Below are positions 23,995-63,912 of a DNA stretch of 64,000 nucleotides, piece by piece. Position 1 is the first letter of the stretch. Every line of letters begins with the position of its first letter. The position numbers and the translations under genes are program-made. Under the pieces are notes generated by a model. The model searched no databases. It saw nothing but the letters and a program-made list of their open reading frames with translations, and was not told the origin of the DNA. The DNA lies in contig NZ_NTFY01000018.1 of the NCBI RefSeq assembly GCF_002289565.1, positions 62,001 to 126,000 of the forward strand. The letters run 5' to 3'. This stretch comes from Rhodopirellula sp. SM50. GTDB lineage: Bacteria; Planctomycetota; Planctomycetia; Pirellulales; Pirellulaceae.

Positions 23995-24179
23995 GATTCA
24001 AGGGAGGTGGGCCAGCGGCGAAAACGAAGATCGACGTCTATTGTAGCCAGATGATCGATCGATGACTCAATCGCCGTTGAACACGGCGCTCGGTTCTTGT
24101 CAGCGCGTCGAGACTGACTTAGCATCGTCCGATTTCCGCTCCGATCGCCCAATACCGCTAAGTTAAGACAAATGGAGAG

Positions 24180-24247
24180 GCCCGGACGCTGGCGCGAACC
24201 GGCTGGTACCAAACGATTATCAGCCGTTTGGCGCGAGCCTACGGGCC
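24180..24247. repeat. Imperfect 27-bp inverted repeat between divergent genes
   Basis: The left arm, GGCCCGGACGCTGGCGCGAA and on to CCGGCTG, pairs with the complement of CAGCCGTTTGGCGCGAGCCT and on to ACGGGCC, at about 21 of 27 positions. One arm recurs at 51066-51092 upstream of the PPIase gene. The rest of the 329-base gap (23995-24323) holds no gene I can support and must contain both promoters. Confidence 0.75.
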
Positions 24248-24323
24248 CCGGCCTAAGGAAGCGACGCTTAGCTAAGCGTTATTGCTCCGATCGCCCGCTC
24301 CGCCGAACTCGAAGAATTGAACA

Positions 24324-25085: not shown

Positions 25086-25119
25086 CGACGCCGTGCAGGG
25101 ACCGATCGGGAGGCGGGGG

Positions 25120-25256
25120 GCGTCAATTGTATTACTGCAGGATTTGGCAACCGATTTAGATTCTCTCCCTCTGGGAGAGACGGCGTTTGCGCAGCAAGCA
25201 AACGTCAGAGAGGGCCGGCGGCTCGCGAAAGTCTTGGCGACGTCCGCTACGATCAA
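25120..25256 (+). mobile_element. MITE-like element, copy A (left half)
   Basis: Begins with the terminal inverted repeat GCGTCAATT-GTAT-TACTGCA, then continues GGCAACCGATTTAG, CTCTCCCTCTGGGAGAGA and a GCGTTTGC/GCAAACG hairpin. It stops after GCGACGTCCGCTACGATCA; the right half present in copies C and D is missing. It lies between xthA and the PHP gene and makes up most of that gap. Confidence 0.75.
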
Positions 25257-25362
25257 CTCCGCCCCTATACAATTGACGGCCCGAGCTTCCAAAGAAATGC
25301 GTGTTCCCAGCCAGAGCCTGGGAACCAGTGGAATCTACTTTTACTACGAACCGAAACAGACT

Positions 25363-26598: not shown

Positions 26599-26649
26599 CG
26601 GTTGATGTTACGTCGCTGCCGGGGGATATCGATCGTTTAACGGCAGCGT

Positions 26650-26760
26650 TTGGCAACCCATTTAGATTCTCTCCCTCTGGGAGAGACGGCGTTTGCGCTG
26701 CAAGCAAACGCCAGAGAGGGCCGACGTTGAGAAAGGCTTAGCGACTTCCGCGACGATCAA
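26650..26760 (+). mobile_element. MITE-like element, copy B (internal fragment)
   Basis: Matches copy A from TTTGGCAACC through GGAGAGACGGCGTTTGCG, GCAAACGCCAGAGAGGGCC and AAGGCTTAGCGACTTCCGCG to ACGATCA. The left terminal repeat and the right half are missing. It lies between the stop codons of the converging PHP and yidC genes. Confidence 0.75.
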
Positions 26761-26788
26761 GTCCGTCACTTTCGCAACGAGCGGCCGA

Positions 26789-41330: not shown

Positions 41331-41446
41331 CGGAAGAAGACGATCTTCTTCAAGCGTGCGTGACCGCACACCAATTCTCAATTCATTGTGGTGACGGTAA
41401 ACTTCGACTTCTTCACTTCTGCACTCCAACCGCGATCGCAACAGCC

Positions 41447-42871
41447 ATGACGGATTATCGAACCGAACACGACTCGATGGGTGACGTTCAGGTGCCGGCC
41501 GACGCCTATTACGGTGCCCAGACCCAACGCGCCGTCGAGAATTTCCCGATCAGCGGATGGCGACTGCCGCAAACCATGATCAGCGCCATGGGCATGGTCA
41601 AGCACGCCTGCGGCGTCGCCAACCGTGACCTCGGCAAATTGACCGGCAGCGGCAAAAACCCGCTGACGGATTCACAGGTCGACGCCATGCTGGCCGCCGC
41701 CGAGGAAGTGGTCGAAGGCAAACTCGCTGCTGAATTCCCCGTCGACGTCTTCCAAACCGGAAGCGGCACCAGCAGCAACATGAACGTCAATGAAGTGATC
41801 AGCAATCGCGCGATCGAAATCGCCGGCGGCGATCGGATGGCGTTGGAAAAGCCGATCCATCCCAACGACCACGTCAATATGGGGCAGAGCACCAACGACA
41901 CCTTCCCCACCGCCATTCATGTCGCGACCGCCGTTCAAATCCAGACCGCGCTGATCCCGGCACTGGAGTCGTTGCATGCGTCCTTGGTCACCAAAGCGAA
42001 AGCCTGGGACAAGGTGATGAAGATCGGACGCACCCACCTGATGGACGCCACCCCGCTGCGGCTCGGTCAAGAGTTCGGCGGATTCGCGCGACAGGTGGAA
42101 CTGTCGATCGCGCGGGCCAAGGTGGCTCGCGATGCCGTGTTGGAATTGCCCGTCGGCGGAACCGCGGTCGGCAGCGGAATCAACACGCACCCTGAATTCG
42201 GCGCCCGTGTCGCCGCCGCACTGCAACAACGAACGGGCATCGCGTTCATCGACGCGGTCAATCATTTCGAAGCCAACGCCCAACGCGACGCCTTGGTTCA
42301 ATCGCACGGCGAACTGAAGTGCATTGCACAAACGTTGTTCAACCTGGCCAACAACATTCGCTGGTTGGGTAGCGGTCCACGCTGCGGATTCTACGAGGTG
42401 CAGCTTCCGTCGCGACAGCCCGGCAGTTCGATCATGCCCGGCAAGGTCAATCCGGTGATGTGCGAGTCGATGATGCAATTGACCGCCCGCGTGATCGGGA
42501 ATGACGGCACGATGACACTCAGCGGCGCCGCCGGCGGCAATTTTCAGCTCAACATCATGATGCCGGTGATGGCCCACACCGTGCTCGAATCGATCGCCTT
42601 GCTCAGCAGCGGCTCCAATGCGTTTGTCGAATTCTGTGTCGACGAGATGGAGGCGAACGAAGAATCCTGCAACGCGGCGGTCGAGCAAAGCCTGTCGATG
42701 TGCACCAGCTTGAATCCGTTGATCGGCTACGAACAGGCGGCAAAGTTGGCCAAAGAGGCGTTCGCGAGCGGTCAGACGATTCGCGAACTGTGTCTGGAGA
42801 AAGGGATCTTGGCCGAAGACGTTCTGGCCGATGCGTTGGACCCTTGGAAGATGACCGAACCGCAGGGTTGA
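41447..42871 (+). CDS. fumC: Fumarate hydratase class II
   Basis: TCA-cycle enzyme of 474 residues interconverting fumarate and malate without an iron-sulfur cluster. Signatures: YRTEHDSMGDVQVPADAYYG at the start, FQTGSGTSSNMNVNEVISNR, HPNDHVNMGQSTNDTFPTA and the family signature GSSIMPGKVNPV. The ATG at 41447 gives the expected N-terminus MTDYRTEHDSMG; the 29 codons of open frame upstream are not homologous in character. Confidence 0.97.
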   Translation: MTDYRTEHDSMGDVQVPADAYYGAQTQRAVENFPISGWRLPQTMISAMGMVKHACGVANRDLGKLTGSGKNPLTDSQVDAMLAAAEEVVEGKLAAEFPVDVFQTGSGTSSNMNVNEVISNRAIEIAGGDRMALEKPIHPNDHVNMGQSTNDTFPTAIHVATAVQIQTALIPALESLHASLVTKAKAWDKVMKIGRTHLMDATPLRLGQEFGGFARQVELSIARAKVARDAVLELPVGGTAVGSGINTHPEFGARVAAALQQRTGIAFIDAVNHFEANAQRDALVQSHGELKCIAQTLFNLANNIRWLGSGPRCGFYEVQLPSRQPGSSIMPGKVNPVMCESMMQLTARVIGNDGTMTLSGAAGGNFQLNIMMPVMAHTVLESIALLSSGSNAFVEFCVDEMEANEESCNAAVEQSLSMCTSLNPLIGYEQAAKLAKEAFASGQTIRELCLEKGILAEDVLADALDPWKMTEPQG

Positions 42872-42899
42872 GCGTTTTTCGGCTTGTTTCCGGGCTCCG

Positions 42900-43036
42900 C
42901 CCTACGCCGTGAACGATTTATTTCCTGTGTTTGACGAGGTTTTAGCGGTAGGGCGCAAGCCCTCCGGCTTGCGCATCTTTACCAACACACCGGAGGGCTC
43001 GCGCCCTACCGCTAAAAAGTCGTTCACGGCGTAGGG
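42900..43036. repeat. Nested palindrome, copy 2
   Basis: Same architecture as at 2200-2336: outer 20-bp arms (42900-42919 and 43017-43036, one mismatch) enclosing inner 25-bp arms (42943-42967 and 42990-43014). A GGCGGAGCCT-type stretch (CTCCGCCTGGGAACACG) follows. The palindrome lies between the converging fumC and glycosyltransferase genes. Confidence 0.9.
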
Positions 43037-43100
43037 CTCCGCCTGGGAACACGCCTGGTTGGAGGCTCCGCCCCCTGTCAGTGCACCGCGTGTGGCGGAG

Positions 43101-43365
43101 GACGTCAATTTGACTACTGCAAGATTCATGGCTCCCTTCTCCCCCACAAATCGTAACAAGCTTGCTTGTCGATTTGTGGGGGAGAAGGGCTGGGGATGAG
43201 GGGGCTGGTGATCGGTTTTGCAGCCCACATCGATCGTCGCGGAAGTCGCTAAGCCTTTCGGGGCGCCGGCCCTCTCTGGCGTTTGCTTGCTGCGCAAACG
43301 CCGTCTCTCCCAAAGGGAGAGAATCTAAATCGGTTGCCAAGTTCTGCAGTAAAAGAATCGACGTC
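43101..43365 (-). mobile_element. MITE-like element, copy C (complete, 265 bp)
   Basis: Both ends carry the terminal inverted repeat: GACGTCAATT-TGAC-TACTGCA at the left, and GACGTCGATT-CTTT-TACTGCA read inward from the right. Internally, on the minus strand, it holds CTCTCCCTTTGGGAGAGA, a GCGTTTGC/GCAAACGC hairpin, CTTAGCGACTTCCGCGACG, and a long hairpin with 17-bp arms TTCTCCCCCACAAATCG. Nearly identical to copy D at the other end of the window. No transposase is encoded, so mobilisation would need an enzyme from elsewhere. Confidence 0.8.
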
Positions 43366-43492
43366 CCGAGCCACACCGCCATTGCGTTCCAAGGCGGAGC
43401 CTTGGAACGAGAGAAACGCAACCGGACGGCTCGCGCCGTTCCGCTAGCACGTTCAGCGCCGCTCGCTGACGCTTCCCGCTGGAATGAATCCG

Positions 43493-44638
43493 CTACGTTG
43501 ATTCCGTTCGGCCGCGCCAGGCGACTTGACGCCCGGCGAGGTGATTGGCCAACGCGATCCACTGCAGCACCACGAACGTCAGCGTCGCCGGCACATGACA
43601 CAGCGCTCCGAACCAAGACTGGCGCAACCGTGCCGCCGCGACCAGTCGCGGGACGTGGGCCAACACCACCGCCAGTATTGAAATCACGATCGCGACCGGT
43701 TTCCTGTCAGCCAGCGAAACGGCCAATGCAACCAACGGCAGCACGCTGCAGCCGAGCAGCAAGAGGGTGAACACGACGATCAGGCGTGGATTGGCGATCC
43801 CTTCGATCGCATTCTTCAGCACGCCGCGAACCACCTCGGTCGCTCCCCGGTACATCCGGCAATCCGCCAGTTCGGTCCCGTCGACCACGTCGGTCATGAT
43901 GCCGGCCGATCGATACGCACGCGGCAGTTTCACCCCATCGTGCCTCGATTGCTTGATCGCTTCGTGGGTGCCGGCCTTGTTGTAGGCGTCACGTGTGGAA
44001 AGAAACAATTGCCCGCAACCGGCGGCGAGACTTGCGTCACCATGGGAACGCATCCTCGCGAAAGGCAGGTAGCACAGCAAAATAAAATGCATCATCGGGA
44101 TCAACCATTTCTCCAACCACGTCCCGGTGATCTGGTGGGGAAACCCGCTCAGTAGTCCGACGTCGGTTTGGTCTTGGTACTGCATCAATTGGCACAGCGC
44201 GTCAGGCGTCAGGCGAACGTCCGCGTCGATGAACACCAATCGCTCGCTGGTGGCGGCGTCAGCGAGTTGCCAGCAGGCGTGTTGTTTTCCGTTCCAACCG
44301 GACGGCAAGGGTTTGCCGTGAATCAACCGAACGCGCCGATCGCGTTGCGCGAACTCGGTCACGATCTCCGCCGTGGCATCGGAGGAGGCGTCATCGAGCA
44401 CGACGACTTCGATCATGACGTTGTCGCTCGACAAGGCCGCTTGGATGCAGTCGCCGATTCCCGGCGCTTCGTCACGCGCGGGGACAAGCACCGAAATTTG
44501 CGGTACCGAATTTGGATCGGTGTTTGACGGAGGTTTGTCATCGGTGCCGAGACATTGAAACAGCCGCAGGTTGGCTAGGAACATCGCGGCTGGAAAGCTC
44601 GTCAACACCAACGCCGTGATCGCCAGAAACAGGGTCAT
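43493..44638 (-). CDS. Family 2 glycosyltransferase, CrtQ/HpnB-like
   Basis: Protein of 381 residues. An N-terminal membrane anchor (TLFLAITALVLTSFPAAMFL) precedes a GT-A catalytic domain with ISVLVPARDEAPGIGDCIQA, VVVLDDASSDATAEI, the LVFIDADVRL metal site, and LLSGFPHQITGTWLEKWLIP. About three C-terminal helices follow (LIVVFTLLLLGCSVLPLVAL). This architecture matches CrtQ of staphyloxanthin synthesis, which glucosylates a carotenoid carboxylic acid. The ATG overlaps the stop of the acyltransferase gene by 4 bases (ATGA), indicating translational coupling. HpnB-like hopanoid transferases are the main alternative; the neighbours favour carotenoid. Confidence 0.85.
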   Translation of the reverse strand: MTLFLAITALVLTSFPAAMFLANLRLFQCLGTDDKPPSNTDPNSVPQISVLVPARDEAPGIGDCIQAALSSDNVMIEVVVLDDASSDATAEIVTEFAQRDRRVRLIHGKPLPSGWNGKQHACWQLADAATSERLVFIDADVRLTPDALCQLMQYQDQTDVGLLSGFPHQITGTWLEKWLIPMMHFILLCYLPFARMRSHGDASLAAGCGQLFLSTRDAYNKAGTHEAIKQSRHDGVKLPRAYRSAGIMTDVVDGTELADCRMYRGATEVVRGVLKNAIEGIANPRLIVVFTLLLLGCSVLPLVALAVSLADRKPVAIVISILAVVLAHVPRLVAAARLRQSWFGALCHVPATLTFVVLQWIALANHLAGRQVAWRGRTEST

Positions 44639-45477
44639 TGGAATTGGTCTCCGTGCCCGGCCTTGAAGGACTTGCCCGTCAACATCGCTTTGACACGTCG
44701 ACAAGAATCGTACACCCAGCCACTTCCACTGGTGCCGCTGAGCAGGTTGTCGAACGGTTCACACGATCGCGAGATGGTCAATTCGGCCAACCGCGTTTGG
44801 GCGTCGCGAAGCCCACCGGCTAAGTGTTTGGCCCAATCCGGCTTGGACCATTCCGGATGGTCTCCCGTTCGCAGCGGCACACCCAGCGACACCAGGCAAA
44901 CCGGCAGCCGTTCCTCCCAAAACACATACTCCAACGCCAGCGGCAGCGCGACGGCATGGTCGAAACGTTTACACAGGTGCGACAGGCCGGGCATCAATTC
45001 AGCGCCGTGGTCACGCACGTCTGCGAACCGGCCTTCGGGAGTGATCCAGATGGCCGAATCCGGTTGATTCAAGATCGAGACGCTTTTTTTGAGAAACGAC
45101 GCGGCACCCGACGTGCTGGAGAGTTTGACGCCGTAGAAGCCGAGCTTTTCAAAAACGCTGTATTGTTCCAGGGCATCGGCATCGATCGGCGCGAAAAAAT
45201 GGCGTTCAGGGAACAGCGTCCGGTGCAGGAAATGCGCGATCAGCGGGTCCCACCACGAAGGATGATTCGCGTAGACGATCAACGGTGCGTCGCTGGCGAA
45301 GTCGGCCGTCGGGTGCGTCGACCGATCGATGGCGATGGAATGAAAGTGGCGACGGAGATAAGGCCGCAAGAAAGCGTGGAAACCGCCGAGGAACCAGGCG
45401 GCCGATTTCTTGACCAGCAATTCGTCGCCTTGCGTTTCTCGCACAACAGCCTTCGTCATGGAGTCCGTCGGGGGCAA
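44635..45477 (-). CDS. 1-acylglycerol-3-phosphate-type acyltransferase, CrtO-like
   Basis: Protein of 280 residues of the PlsC acyltransferase superfamily. The catalytic motif NHPSWWDP (His-x4-Asp form) is at about residue 71, and the substrate-binding ITPEGRF is at about 145. In the staphyloxanthin pathway the acyltransferase CrtO esterifies the glucose moiety; here the gene lies between the CrtI-family oxidoreductase (28 bases upstream) and the glycosyltransferase (4-base overlap), so the same role is likely. A general phospholipid acyltransferase is the alternative. Confidence 0.82.
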   Translation of the reverse strand: MPPTDSMTKAVVRETQGDELLVKKSAAWFLGGFHAFLRPYLRRHFHSIAIDRSTHPTADFASDAPLIVYANHPSWWDPLIAHFLHRTLFPERHFFAPIDADALEQYSVFEKLGFYGVKLSSTSGAASFLKKSVSILNQPDSAIWITPEGRFADVRDHGAELMPGLSHLCKRFDHAVALPLALEYVFWEERLPVCLVSLGVPLRTGDHPEWSKPDWAKHLAGGLRDAQTRLAELTISRSCEPFDNLLSGTSGSGWVYDSCRRVKAMLTGKSFKAGHGDQFQ

Positions 45478-48561: not shown

Positions 48562-48932
48562 CACACCCACTGTAGCCGAACCCCGCGCGGTTTTCGAAGG
48601 GTGGAGTGAAGTGGGGTAAGCATCCAGCTTGCCACCCCGGCCGGCTTCTCTCGTTCCAAGGCTCCGCCTTGGAACGCAATGGGGGTGTGGCTCCGCCACA
48701 CGCGGTGCGCTGACAGGAGGCGGAGCCTCCAACCAGGCGTGTTGCCAGGCGGAGCCCGGCAACAAGCCGCGATGAAGTGGGGTAAGCATCTTGCTTGCCA
48801 CTCTGGCCGGCTCTGCCGGCGCGTTTCGGAGGCAGAGCCTCCGAGACAGCGTGTTCCCAGGCGGAGCCTGGGAACAAGTCAAATCCTTTGCCGTCACGCA
48901 CCGCGTGACCAACGCGTCCCGTCCGTCGTTTG
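48562..48932. repeat. Cluster of GGCGGAGCCT- and CATCCAGCTTGCC-type repeats
   Basis: About 370 bases made of short repeats: GTGGGGTAAGCATCCAGCTT at 48611-48630 and a variant at 48777; CAAGGCTCCGCCTTGGAACG at about 48657-48676; GGAGGCGGAGCCTCC at about 48717-48731; AGGCAGAGCCTCCGAGAC and AGGCGGAGCCTGGGAACAAG at about 48830-48876. Similar GGAGCCT stretches occur at 43036-43080, 43390-43412 and 51178-51225. No gene is supported here. Confidence 0.75.
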
Positions 48933-63437: not shown

Positions 63438-63548
63438 GGTGCCCCGTTAGTGACAACCTGCCCGCCCGCGCTTACGAGAATCTTTTAGTTTTTTCGTCGG
63501 TCCCGCATCAAACAGCTGATCCTGAATCGACATCCCGAAGGGATCCAA

Positions 63549-63912
63549 GCCAGTAGCCGGAGGCGAGCGAAGCGACACCTCTGGAAAGCCCTTTACTGCA
63601 GGATTTTGCAACCATTTAGATTCTCTCCCTCAGGGGGAGACGGCGTTTGCGCAGCAAGCAAACGCCAGAGAGGGCCGGCGTTGCGAAAGGCTTAGCGACT
63701 TCCGCGACGATCGATGTGGGCTGCAAAACCGATCACCAGCTCCCTCATCCCCAGCCTTTCTCCCCCACAAATCGACAAGCAAGCTTGTTACGATTTGTGG
63801 GGGAGAAGGGAGCCATGAATCTTGCAGTAATAAAATTGACGTCCCTCGGGGTCGATGGGCGGATTTGGGGCGTGTTCCGGAGGTGGCGCTGCGCTGACCT
63901 CTGGCTACTGGC
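63549..63912. repeat. 37-bp palindrome split by MITE copy D
   Basis: Left arm 63549-63585 (GCCAGTAGCCGGAGGCGAGC onwards) and right arm 63875-63912 (complement GCCAGTAGCCAGAGGTCAGC onwards) match at about 30 of 37 positions. The MITE-like element (63592-63844) lies between them, as if inserted into the loop of an older palindromic repeat. No gene is supported from 63457 to 64000. Confidence 0.75.
63592..63844 (+). mobile_element. MITE-like element, copy D
   Basis: Nearly identical to copy C over about 250 bp, in the opposite orientation. The right end, read inward, is GACGTCAATT-TTAT-TACTGCA; the left end retains only TACTGCA of the terminal repeat. Contains the same internal hairpins, including the 17-bp-arm TTCTCCCCCACAAATCG palindrome at about 63759-63807. 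Confidence 0.8.

Follow-up and report, generated by a model that had tools for sequence, protein, structure and literature searches.

Between two convergent open reading frames of Rhodopirellula sp. SM50, 41360–42871 (+) and 43493–44704 (−), which from their sequence alone we take to encode a fumarase and a glycosyltransferase, a short element without a gene of its own splits a palindrome in two. To which family does this element belong, how does it choose its sites, and what could have moved it? We followed the locus from the window, the whole stretch of 64,000 nucleotides analysed here (G000:C57:62001–126000), to its own genome (G000, a 9.8-Mb draft of 146 contigs) and to related genomes, referred to below by number (G001, G002, G003, G013) or strain. 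An original prediction made from the window had described four copies of a MITE-like element and suggested recent movement.

Anatomy of the copies and extent of the family

Copy C is a complete long form of 269 bp at 43099–43367 (+). Its inverted ends and interior hairpins were seen correctly in the original prediction, but the boundaries given there (43101–43365, 265 bp) fell 2 bp short at either end. The left terminal inverted repeat is AGGACGTCAATT (43099–43110, +), beginning with A where GGGACGTCRATT-type ends have the usual G, and the right one is AATCGACGTCCC as read on the + strand (43356–43367, −). A hairpin with arms perfect over 20 bp (43134–43189) is part of a CCCTTCTCCC...GGGAGAAGGG module that is found in other planctomycete repeats too, and the conserved core hairpins, GGCGTTTGC/GCAAACGCC and CTCTCCC-AAA-GGGAGAG, lie at 43278–43321. 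The split palindrome reads GTGTGGC-GG on the left (43090–43098) and GA-GCCACAC on the right (43368–43376), with its central G duplicated. Copy C together with its flanks was predicted to fold into one extended hairpin (z = −10.0; 0/100 shuffles equally stable). No Rfam match in the window reached the gathering score. To the left of copy C, at about 42890–43045, there is a palindromic repeat, GGGCTCCGCCCTACGCCGTGAACGA ... TCGTTCACGGCGTAGGGCTCCGCC, which by eye is missing beside the G003 counterpart (L031).

All four related copies were recovered in the window, with revised extents. Copy A (25117–25282, −), previously called partial, is a complete 166-bp short form with flanks GG and GA whose right end had been missed, and copy B, placed at 26650–26760 as another partial copy, is a short form of near full length at about 26623–26787 (−) with decayed ends. 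Copy D is a long form at about 63590–63845 (−) that has lost ~12 bp of its low-coordinate end, the terminal inverted repeat; the near-identity claimed for C and D amounts to 94% over 253 positions, with D short of that end. The relatedness of the copies is not due to chance, since the profile matched copy D at 8.2e-93 (copy C, one of the four training sequences of that profile, matched at 3.5e-102). The TACTGCA described as a shared end after variable bases follows GACGTCRATT at some ends only, and the usual short-form left end is GTATAAGTGGCGGA. A remnant end of another copy, AATCGACATCCC, lies at 63525–63536, ~55 bp left of copy D, and adjoins CCCGAAGGGAT. Elsewhere in the window, a separate repeat of ~135 bp (24147–24285) has about ten BLAST rows in G003 and is absent at the corresponding G001 place, where the flank matches overlap by ~13 bp; it probably represents a further MITE family, one whose duplication is longer.

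The four copies of the window belong to a far larger set. The own genome contained at least 52 BLAST rows, with 40/134 candidates scored, and 151 matches to the end pattern at ≤2 mismatches (about 100 places among those listed) vs 20 for a backward control pattern; the same comparison in G001 gave 176 vs 16. The termini are thus conserved genome-wide, a point on which the original prediction had staked itself. The 67 end pairs of the own genome measured mostly 164–167 bp, with others of 269, about 342, and about 480 bp, and these forms (165, 269, 342, and 480 bp) had common ends and different interiors. We kept 57 of the 67 as complete copies for the target counts and dropped ten in which one "end" was interior or a chance match (L081, L097, L110, L090, L085, L067, L104, L080, L009, and the 209-bp pair of the window, which is copy D). 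Contigs C7, C15, C36, C92, C95, C103, and C123 of the own genome stop inside element copies or no more than about 200 bp from them, as if the repeat had broken the assembly.

Beyond this genome, a 22-base end pattern at ≤1 mismatch occurred in 14/199 family genomes and 4/68 genera, with no control match among those listed. An exact scan of GTDB genomes, which may have excluded records close to the genome of the window, returned records of strain TBK1r (presumably Stieleria magnilauensis), Rhodopirellula sp. JC639, S. sedimenti ICT_E10.1, and Aporhodopirellula aestuarii ICT_H3.1. Complete copies were mostly 123–490 bp. The usual form was about 390 bp in TBK1r and 123 bp in A. aestuarii, the latter with a different interior hairpin, and genera g52, g60, and g68 contributed additional interiors of roughly 146–394 bp. 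Matching contig positions suggest that A. aestuarii corresponds to G180 in genus g68. When the interiors were clustered, hybrid copies acted as bridges and 106/137 fell together, so we claim no number of interior classes. Genes within long end-to-end intervals were either inserted IS110-type elements or enclosed by chance end pairs.

The MITE-like anatomy first proposed has held up: the elements have conserved terminal inverted repeats, small size without a transposase gene, many dispersed copies, unoccupied sites, and a target-site duplication. We consider it reasonably probable, jointly with the symmetric target and the trans-acting enzyme discussed below, that they form a superfamily of non-autonomous mobile elements whose defining feature is the ends GGGACGTCRATT, often continuing NTATNACTGA.

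Insertion sites and their unoccupied versions

Their flanks show that copies tend to occupy the centre of symmetry of palindromes, which are of several kinds unrelated in sequence, and where an empty version is known the central base is usually duplicated, stem-XYZ-stem becoming stem-XY, element, YZ-stem. Left and right flanks frequently mirror each other. Joining the flanks of the 57 complete copies gave a stem score of at least 6 in 31 (shuffle mean 5.5, maximum 13; 500 shuffles) and a lower score in 26. Flank complementarity was 4.84 of 8 at offset 2,2 vs 2.77 when shuffled and 2.2–2.7 at asymmetric offsets, with high values at symmetric offsets only. The base before the element equalled the base after it in 42/57 copies (shuffle mean 16.6, maximum 26; 300 shuffles), including 24 of the 26 with at least 6/8 paired positions at offset 2,2, and differed in the remaining 15. 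Identity over two bases was found in 8/57 (shuffle mean 3.3, maximum 9). A target-site duplication is thus present and mostly 1 bp, which is far shorter than usual for a MITE.

The palindromes themselves differ. Examples are TCGCTGC-GTA-GCAGCGA, GTGTGGC-GGA-GCCACAC, GGAGGC-TCC-GCCTCC, and CCCTCCC-TGGCA-GGGAGGG, each kind of which also occurs unoccupied; on the two sides of an element they read GT and TA, GG and GA, TC and CC, and TGG and GCA, respectively. Sites of the type ATCCC-NNN-GGGAT frequently resemble 2–3 bp duplications. No fixed tetranucleotide was present at the insertion sites of the own-genome end pairs, and beyond GGGACGTC/GACGTCCC the bases are those of the target palindrome.

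The 1-bp duplication recurred in other genomes (1000 shuffles for each of the first three). It was found in 25/30 copies of A. aestuarii (shuffle mean 7.7, maximum 17) and in 21/31 of G001 (mean 8.9, maximum 18), the latter set retaining some false pairs such as L123, L124, and L128. TBK1r had it in 9/12, which equals and does not exceed the shuffle maximum of 9 (mean 3.8), and its flank complementarity over these 12 copies, 4.67, was below the shuffle maximum of 4.75. Six genomes of genera g52, g60, and g68, pooled with omission of loci L286 and L291–L293 whose genomes were already counted, gave 10/12 (mean 4.6, maximum 9). The single copy in G002 had no duplication (0/1).

We sought both 14-base flanks of each copy together in the loci collected for the analysis and found an unoccupied version for 25/137 copies, with an overlap of 1 bp in 19, 2 bp in 4, and 3 bp in 2. 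When flanks of different copies were paired once as a control, 1/137 gave such a site. All 137 copies differ in their flanks, yet some are orthologues, the same insertion in sister genomes (e.g. L001, L031), so the 25 sites are not all independent, and many are paralogous repeats rather than orthologous loci. Copy C is the clearest case: an unoccupied paralogue of its site in the window (48640–48770, −; 96% identity over 112 bp spanning the junction) reads GTGTGGCGGAGCCACAC, and the site of copy C reads GTGTGGCGG-[269]-GAGCCACAC. The G001 copy L057:6797–6961 is absent at the corresponding G003 place (L060), where the junction is readable; the window is also without this insertion, but the site there is rearranged and the junction unreadable. 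Copies that always filled the same orthologous positions would have counted against mobility in the original prediction, and empty sites do exist.

Recent movement, which had been suggested by the similarity of C and D, is not supported for copies A, B, and C, which are common to sister species. A comparison of flanks by eye places copy C at the equivalent position in G003 (L031). The site of copy A is filled in G001 and G003 and has other sequence in G013. G001 also carries copy B; in G003 another element interrupts it, and in G013 it is missing, with flanks too diverged for the junction to be read. Both copies in L073 have G001 counterparts. Copies A, B, and C and the L073 pair, being present in sister genomes, are therefore older than the species split.

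Candidate mechanisms and enzymes

The enrichment at palindrome centres, the 1-bp duplication, the interiors, and the nesting described below are features of the sequences themselves. The best explanation, which we hold with moderate confidence, is that MITE-like elements defined by their ends are moved in trans to palindrome centres by an enzyme reading symmetry or hairpin structure. This trans-acting enzyme would bring two element ends together, forming an end-to-end junction of palindromic sequence, GACGTCCC-N-GGGACGTC. The ends would be exchanged with a target whose recognised feature may be two-fold symmetry or an extruded hairpin, and the two strands would be cut one base apart. A stronger version, which we advance tentatively, is that symmetry itself is the target signal. 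A recombinase acting in trans through a palindromic junction with a one-base stagger would then accept any palindrome or extruded hairpin, and nested hairpins would grow from the inside with any interior.

An ordinary MITE of a DDE insertion sequence that prefers a symmetric target, with an autonomous copy that was lost or has diverged ends and a stagger that yields the 1-bp overlap, is a plausible alternative that we do not favour. It fits the inverted ends, small size, dispersed copies, and empty sites. However, the full-length insertion sequence with the same ends that the original prediction proposed to look for did not appear: no element combining these ends with a transposase of its own turned up among the ends listed for G000 (a draft) and G001 and those examined in G002 and TBK1r, part of the unpaired ends having been fetched, or among the family loci read in genera g52, g60, and g68, a search that more diverged ends would escape. 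Unpaired ends of G002 and TBK1r led to L180, where another IS110-like gene (457 aa) is inserted in an element; other G002 ends had only ~90–240 bp common to each other, and the remaining long intervals in these two genomes look like chance pairs around host genes. IS30 has a symmetric target preference, with a palindromic target and duplications of 2–3 bp. Against a MITE of that type, two-base identity in the elements here stayed within the shuffle maximum, and the overlap was mostly 1 bp (19/25 empty sites, with 2–3 bp in 6).

A Y1/HuH transposase of the RAYT/TIRYT type that works on hairpin loops in single-stranded DNA, the mechanism proposed for REP elements, is in our view an unlikely mover of these elements. 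The own genome has eight PF01797 (Y1_Tnp) loci, and a RAYT-like Y1 transposase gene (L226, G000:C67:15354–15695) lies within an array of multi-hairpin units that resembles the interior of the 342/390-bp forms, at up to 90% over 111 bp. None of the eight loci is bounded by a GGGACGTC pair, however, and they have single 2–3-mismatch matches as by chance; the sites lack a fixed tetranucleotide, and no base duplication is expected from insertion by an HuH enzyme. REP dimers inside palindromes, as published in the accessible text of PMC3733652, are a point in favour of such an enzyme.

Other elements insert into these elements in turn, and some of them bring into consideration a DEDD recombinase of the IS110/IS1111 type, guided by an RNA or recognising structure. 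G001 has nine near-identical copies of an IS110-family IS (PF01548 + PF02371; 331-aa transposase), which lie inside at least six of the elements here, and an IS110-like gene is nested in the same way in G002; IS110-type elements are also described as targeting REP palindromes in the accessible parts of PMC1525189, PMC11208160, and PMC11187229. We nevertheless judge this source of mobility quite improbable. The G001 IS obeys a different rule, inserting at CCCCCT^CATCCCCAGCCC (also written CCCCCT^CATCCCCAGCCCTTCTCCC) with CT at both junctions, and its protein has no match in G000, G002, or G003, all of which carry the elements. PF02371 has just two loci in the own genome, and neither is enclosed by these ends (single 2–3-mismatch matches, as by chance); many unrelated palindromes would require many guides. 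PF13751 had no match in the own genome. The G001 copies of ~1794 bp that contain both ends and the 331-aa DEDD transposase were considered as an autonomous parent and rejected: all 10 distinct insertion places of the IS (9 in G001, 1 in G013) are at CCCCCT^CATCCCCAGCCC with CT on both sides, and three (L144, L158, L166) are by eye not inside such an element. The loci of this IS in G001 and G013 are L123–L128, L143, L144, L153, L158, L162, L166, and L170.

A second MITE family, with ends GGTTCTTCGYGGATTTTAGTGG and a length of about 316 bp, has 109 BLAST rows in G001 vs 3 in G000 and mostly sits at the apex of the CTCTCCC...GGGAGAG hairpin in other copies of the element. Despite this hairpin-apex preference, direct repeats of ~8–9 bp (by eye in L203, L213, and L215) rule out the same target rule; 3/30 loci had no end pair. 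G001 lacks the copy that this family has in L073, and the empty flanks there overlap by 11 bp. Loci of this family are L195–L224, L073, L058, and L131, the last a 1780-bp version with IS110-like reading frames.

That the elements are not mobile, the ends and flanking stems together being one family of large hairpins that selection maintains or gene conversion copies, is suggested by the single extended hairpin predicted for copy C and its flanks, but is very improbable because unoccupied sites exist and the flanking palindromes vary in sequence between copies and occur unoccupied too.

Relation to known repeats and transposons

Known transposases choose targets mainly via sequence, DNA shape, or an RNA guide. 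Landing at the centres of unrelated palindromes, usually with a 1-bp duplication, suggests an enzyme for which symmetry or hairpin structure is the cue. This would help explain the nested hairpins in intergenic regions of these bacteria, would make palindrome extrusion in living cells testable, and would mark out an enzyme still to be found in genomes whose sequence is complete.

In the literature within reach, mostly without subscription papers, neither this element nor 1-bp insertion into the centre of palindromes was described. The general kind, REP dimers within palindromes, is already known from the accessible text of PMC3733652; a target of many palindromes with a 1-bp overlap was not encountered in the literature searched.

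Mitochondrial repetitive hairpin-forming elements are likewise small and mobile and have no known enzyme, but belong to different genomes and have different sequences, and the accessible part of their description contains no inverted-end family or dyad rule (PMC2800124). REP-targeting insertion sequences (Tobes and Pareja 2006, PMC1525189; IS110/IS1111, PMC11208160, PMC11187229) insert in repeated palindromes as the elements here do. As far as those sources extend, they have a transposase and an RNA-guided specific site, whereas our elements have no gene and use sequence-unrelated sites. IS1111 has subterminal inverted repeats with 7-bp and 3-bp extensions (PMC11187229, accessible text); here the bases beyond GGGACGTC/GACGTCCC belong to the target palindrome, and the IS110 genes found inside are secondary insertions with their own CT junctions rather than internal DEDD genes of the elements. 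The IS30-type duplication of 2–3 bp in a palindrome differs from the mostly 1-bp overlap.

The bacterial MITEs RUP, NEMIS, ERIC, and Nezha, as summarised in the accessible text of PMC3733652, share a size of 70–300 bp, inverted ends, absence of a gene, and dispersal. Our elements would be set apart from them by the palindrome-centre target, the 1-bp overlap, and the want of a same-ended autonomous parent among the ends examined.

Similar in habit are the GTAG/CGTC-tagged REP dimers inside palindromes, A. variabilis GTAG-15, T. roseum GTAG-23, and H. neapolitanus CGTC-1 (Di Nocera et al. 2013, PMC3733652), and tagged REPs have been reported in planctomycetes too. According to the accessible text, which in treating REP dimers in palindromes does not mention a duplication, these dimers are small structured non-coding repeats inside palindromes like the element here, and a tagged REP is a hairpin of 20–40 bp whose tag is unpaired and which keeps to a single palindrome consensus (PMC3733652). 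In our elements, CGTC lies in the paired ends and complete copies exceed 100 bp. A REP/BIME repeat would flank its RAYT gene, whereas 0/8 Y1 loci of the own genome are so bounded and only the 342/390-bp interior resembles a RAYT-linked array. Unlike tagged REPs, the elements described here have inverted-repeat ends, varying interiors, many kinds of palindrome as targets, and a duplicated base.
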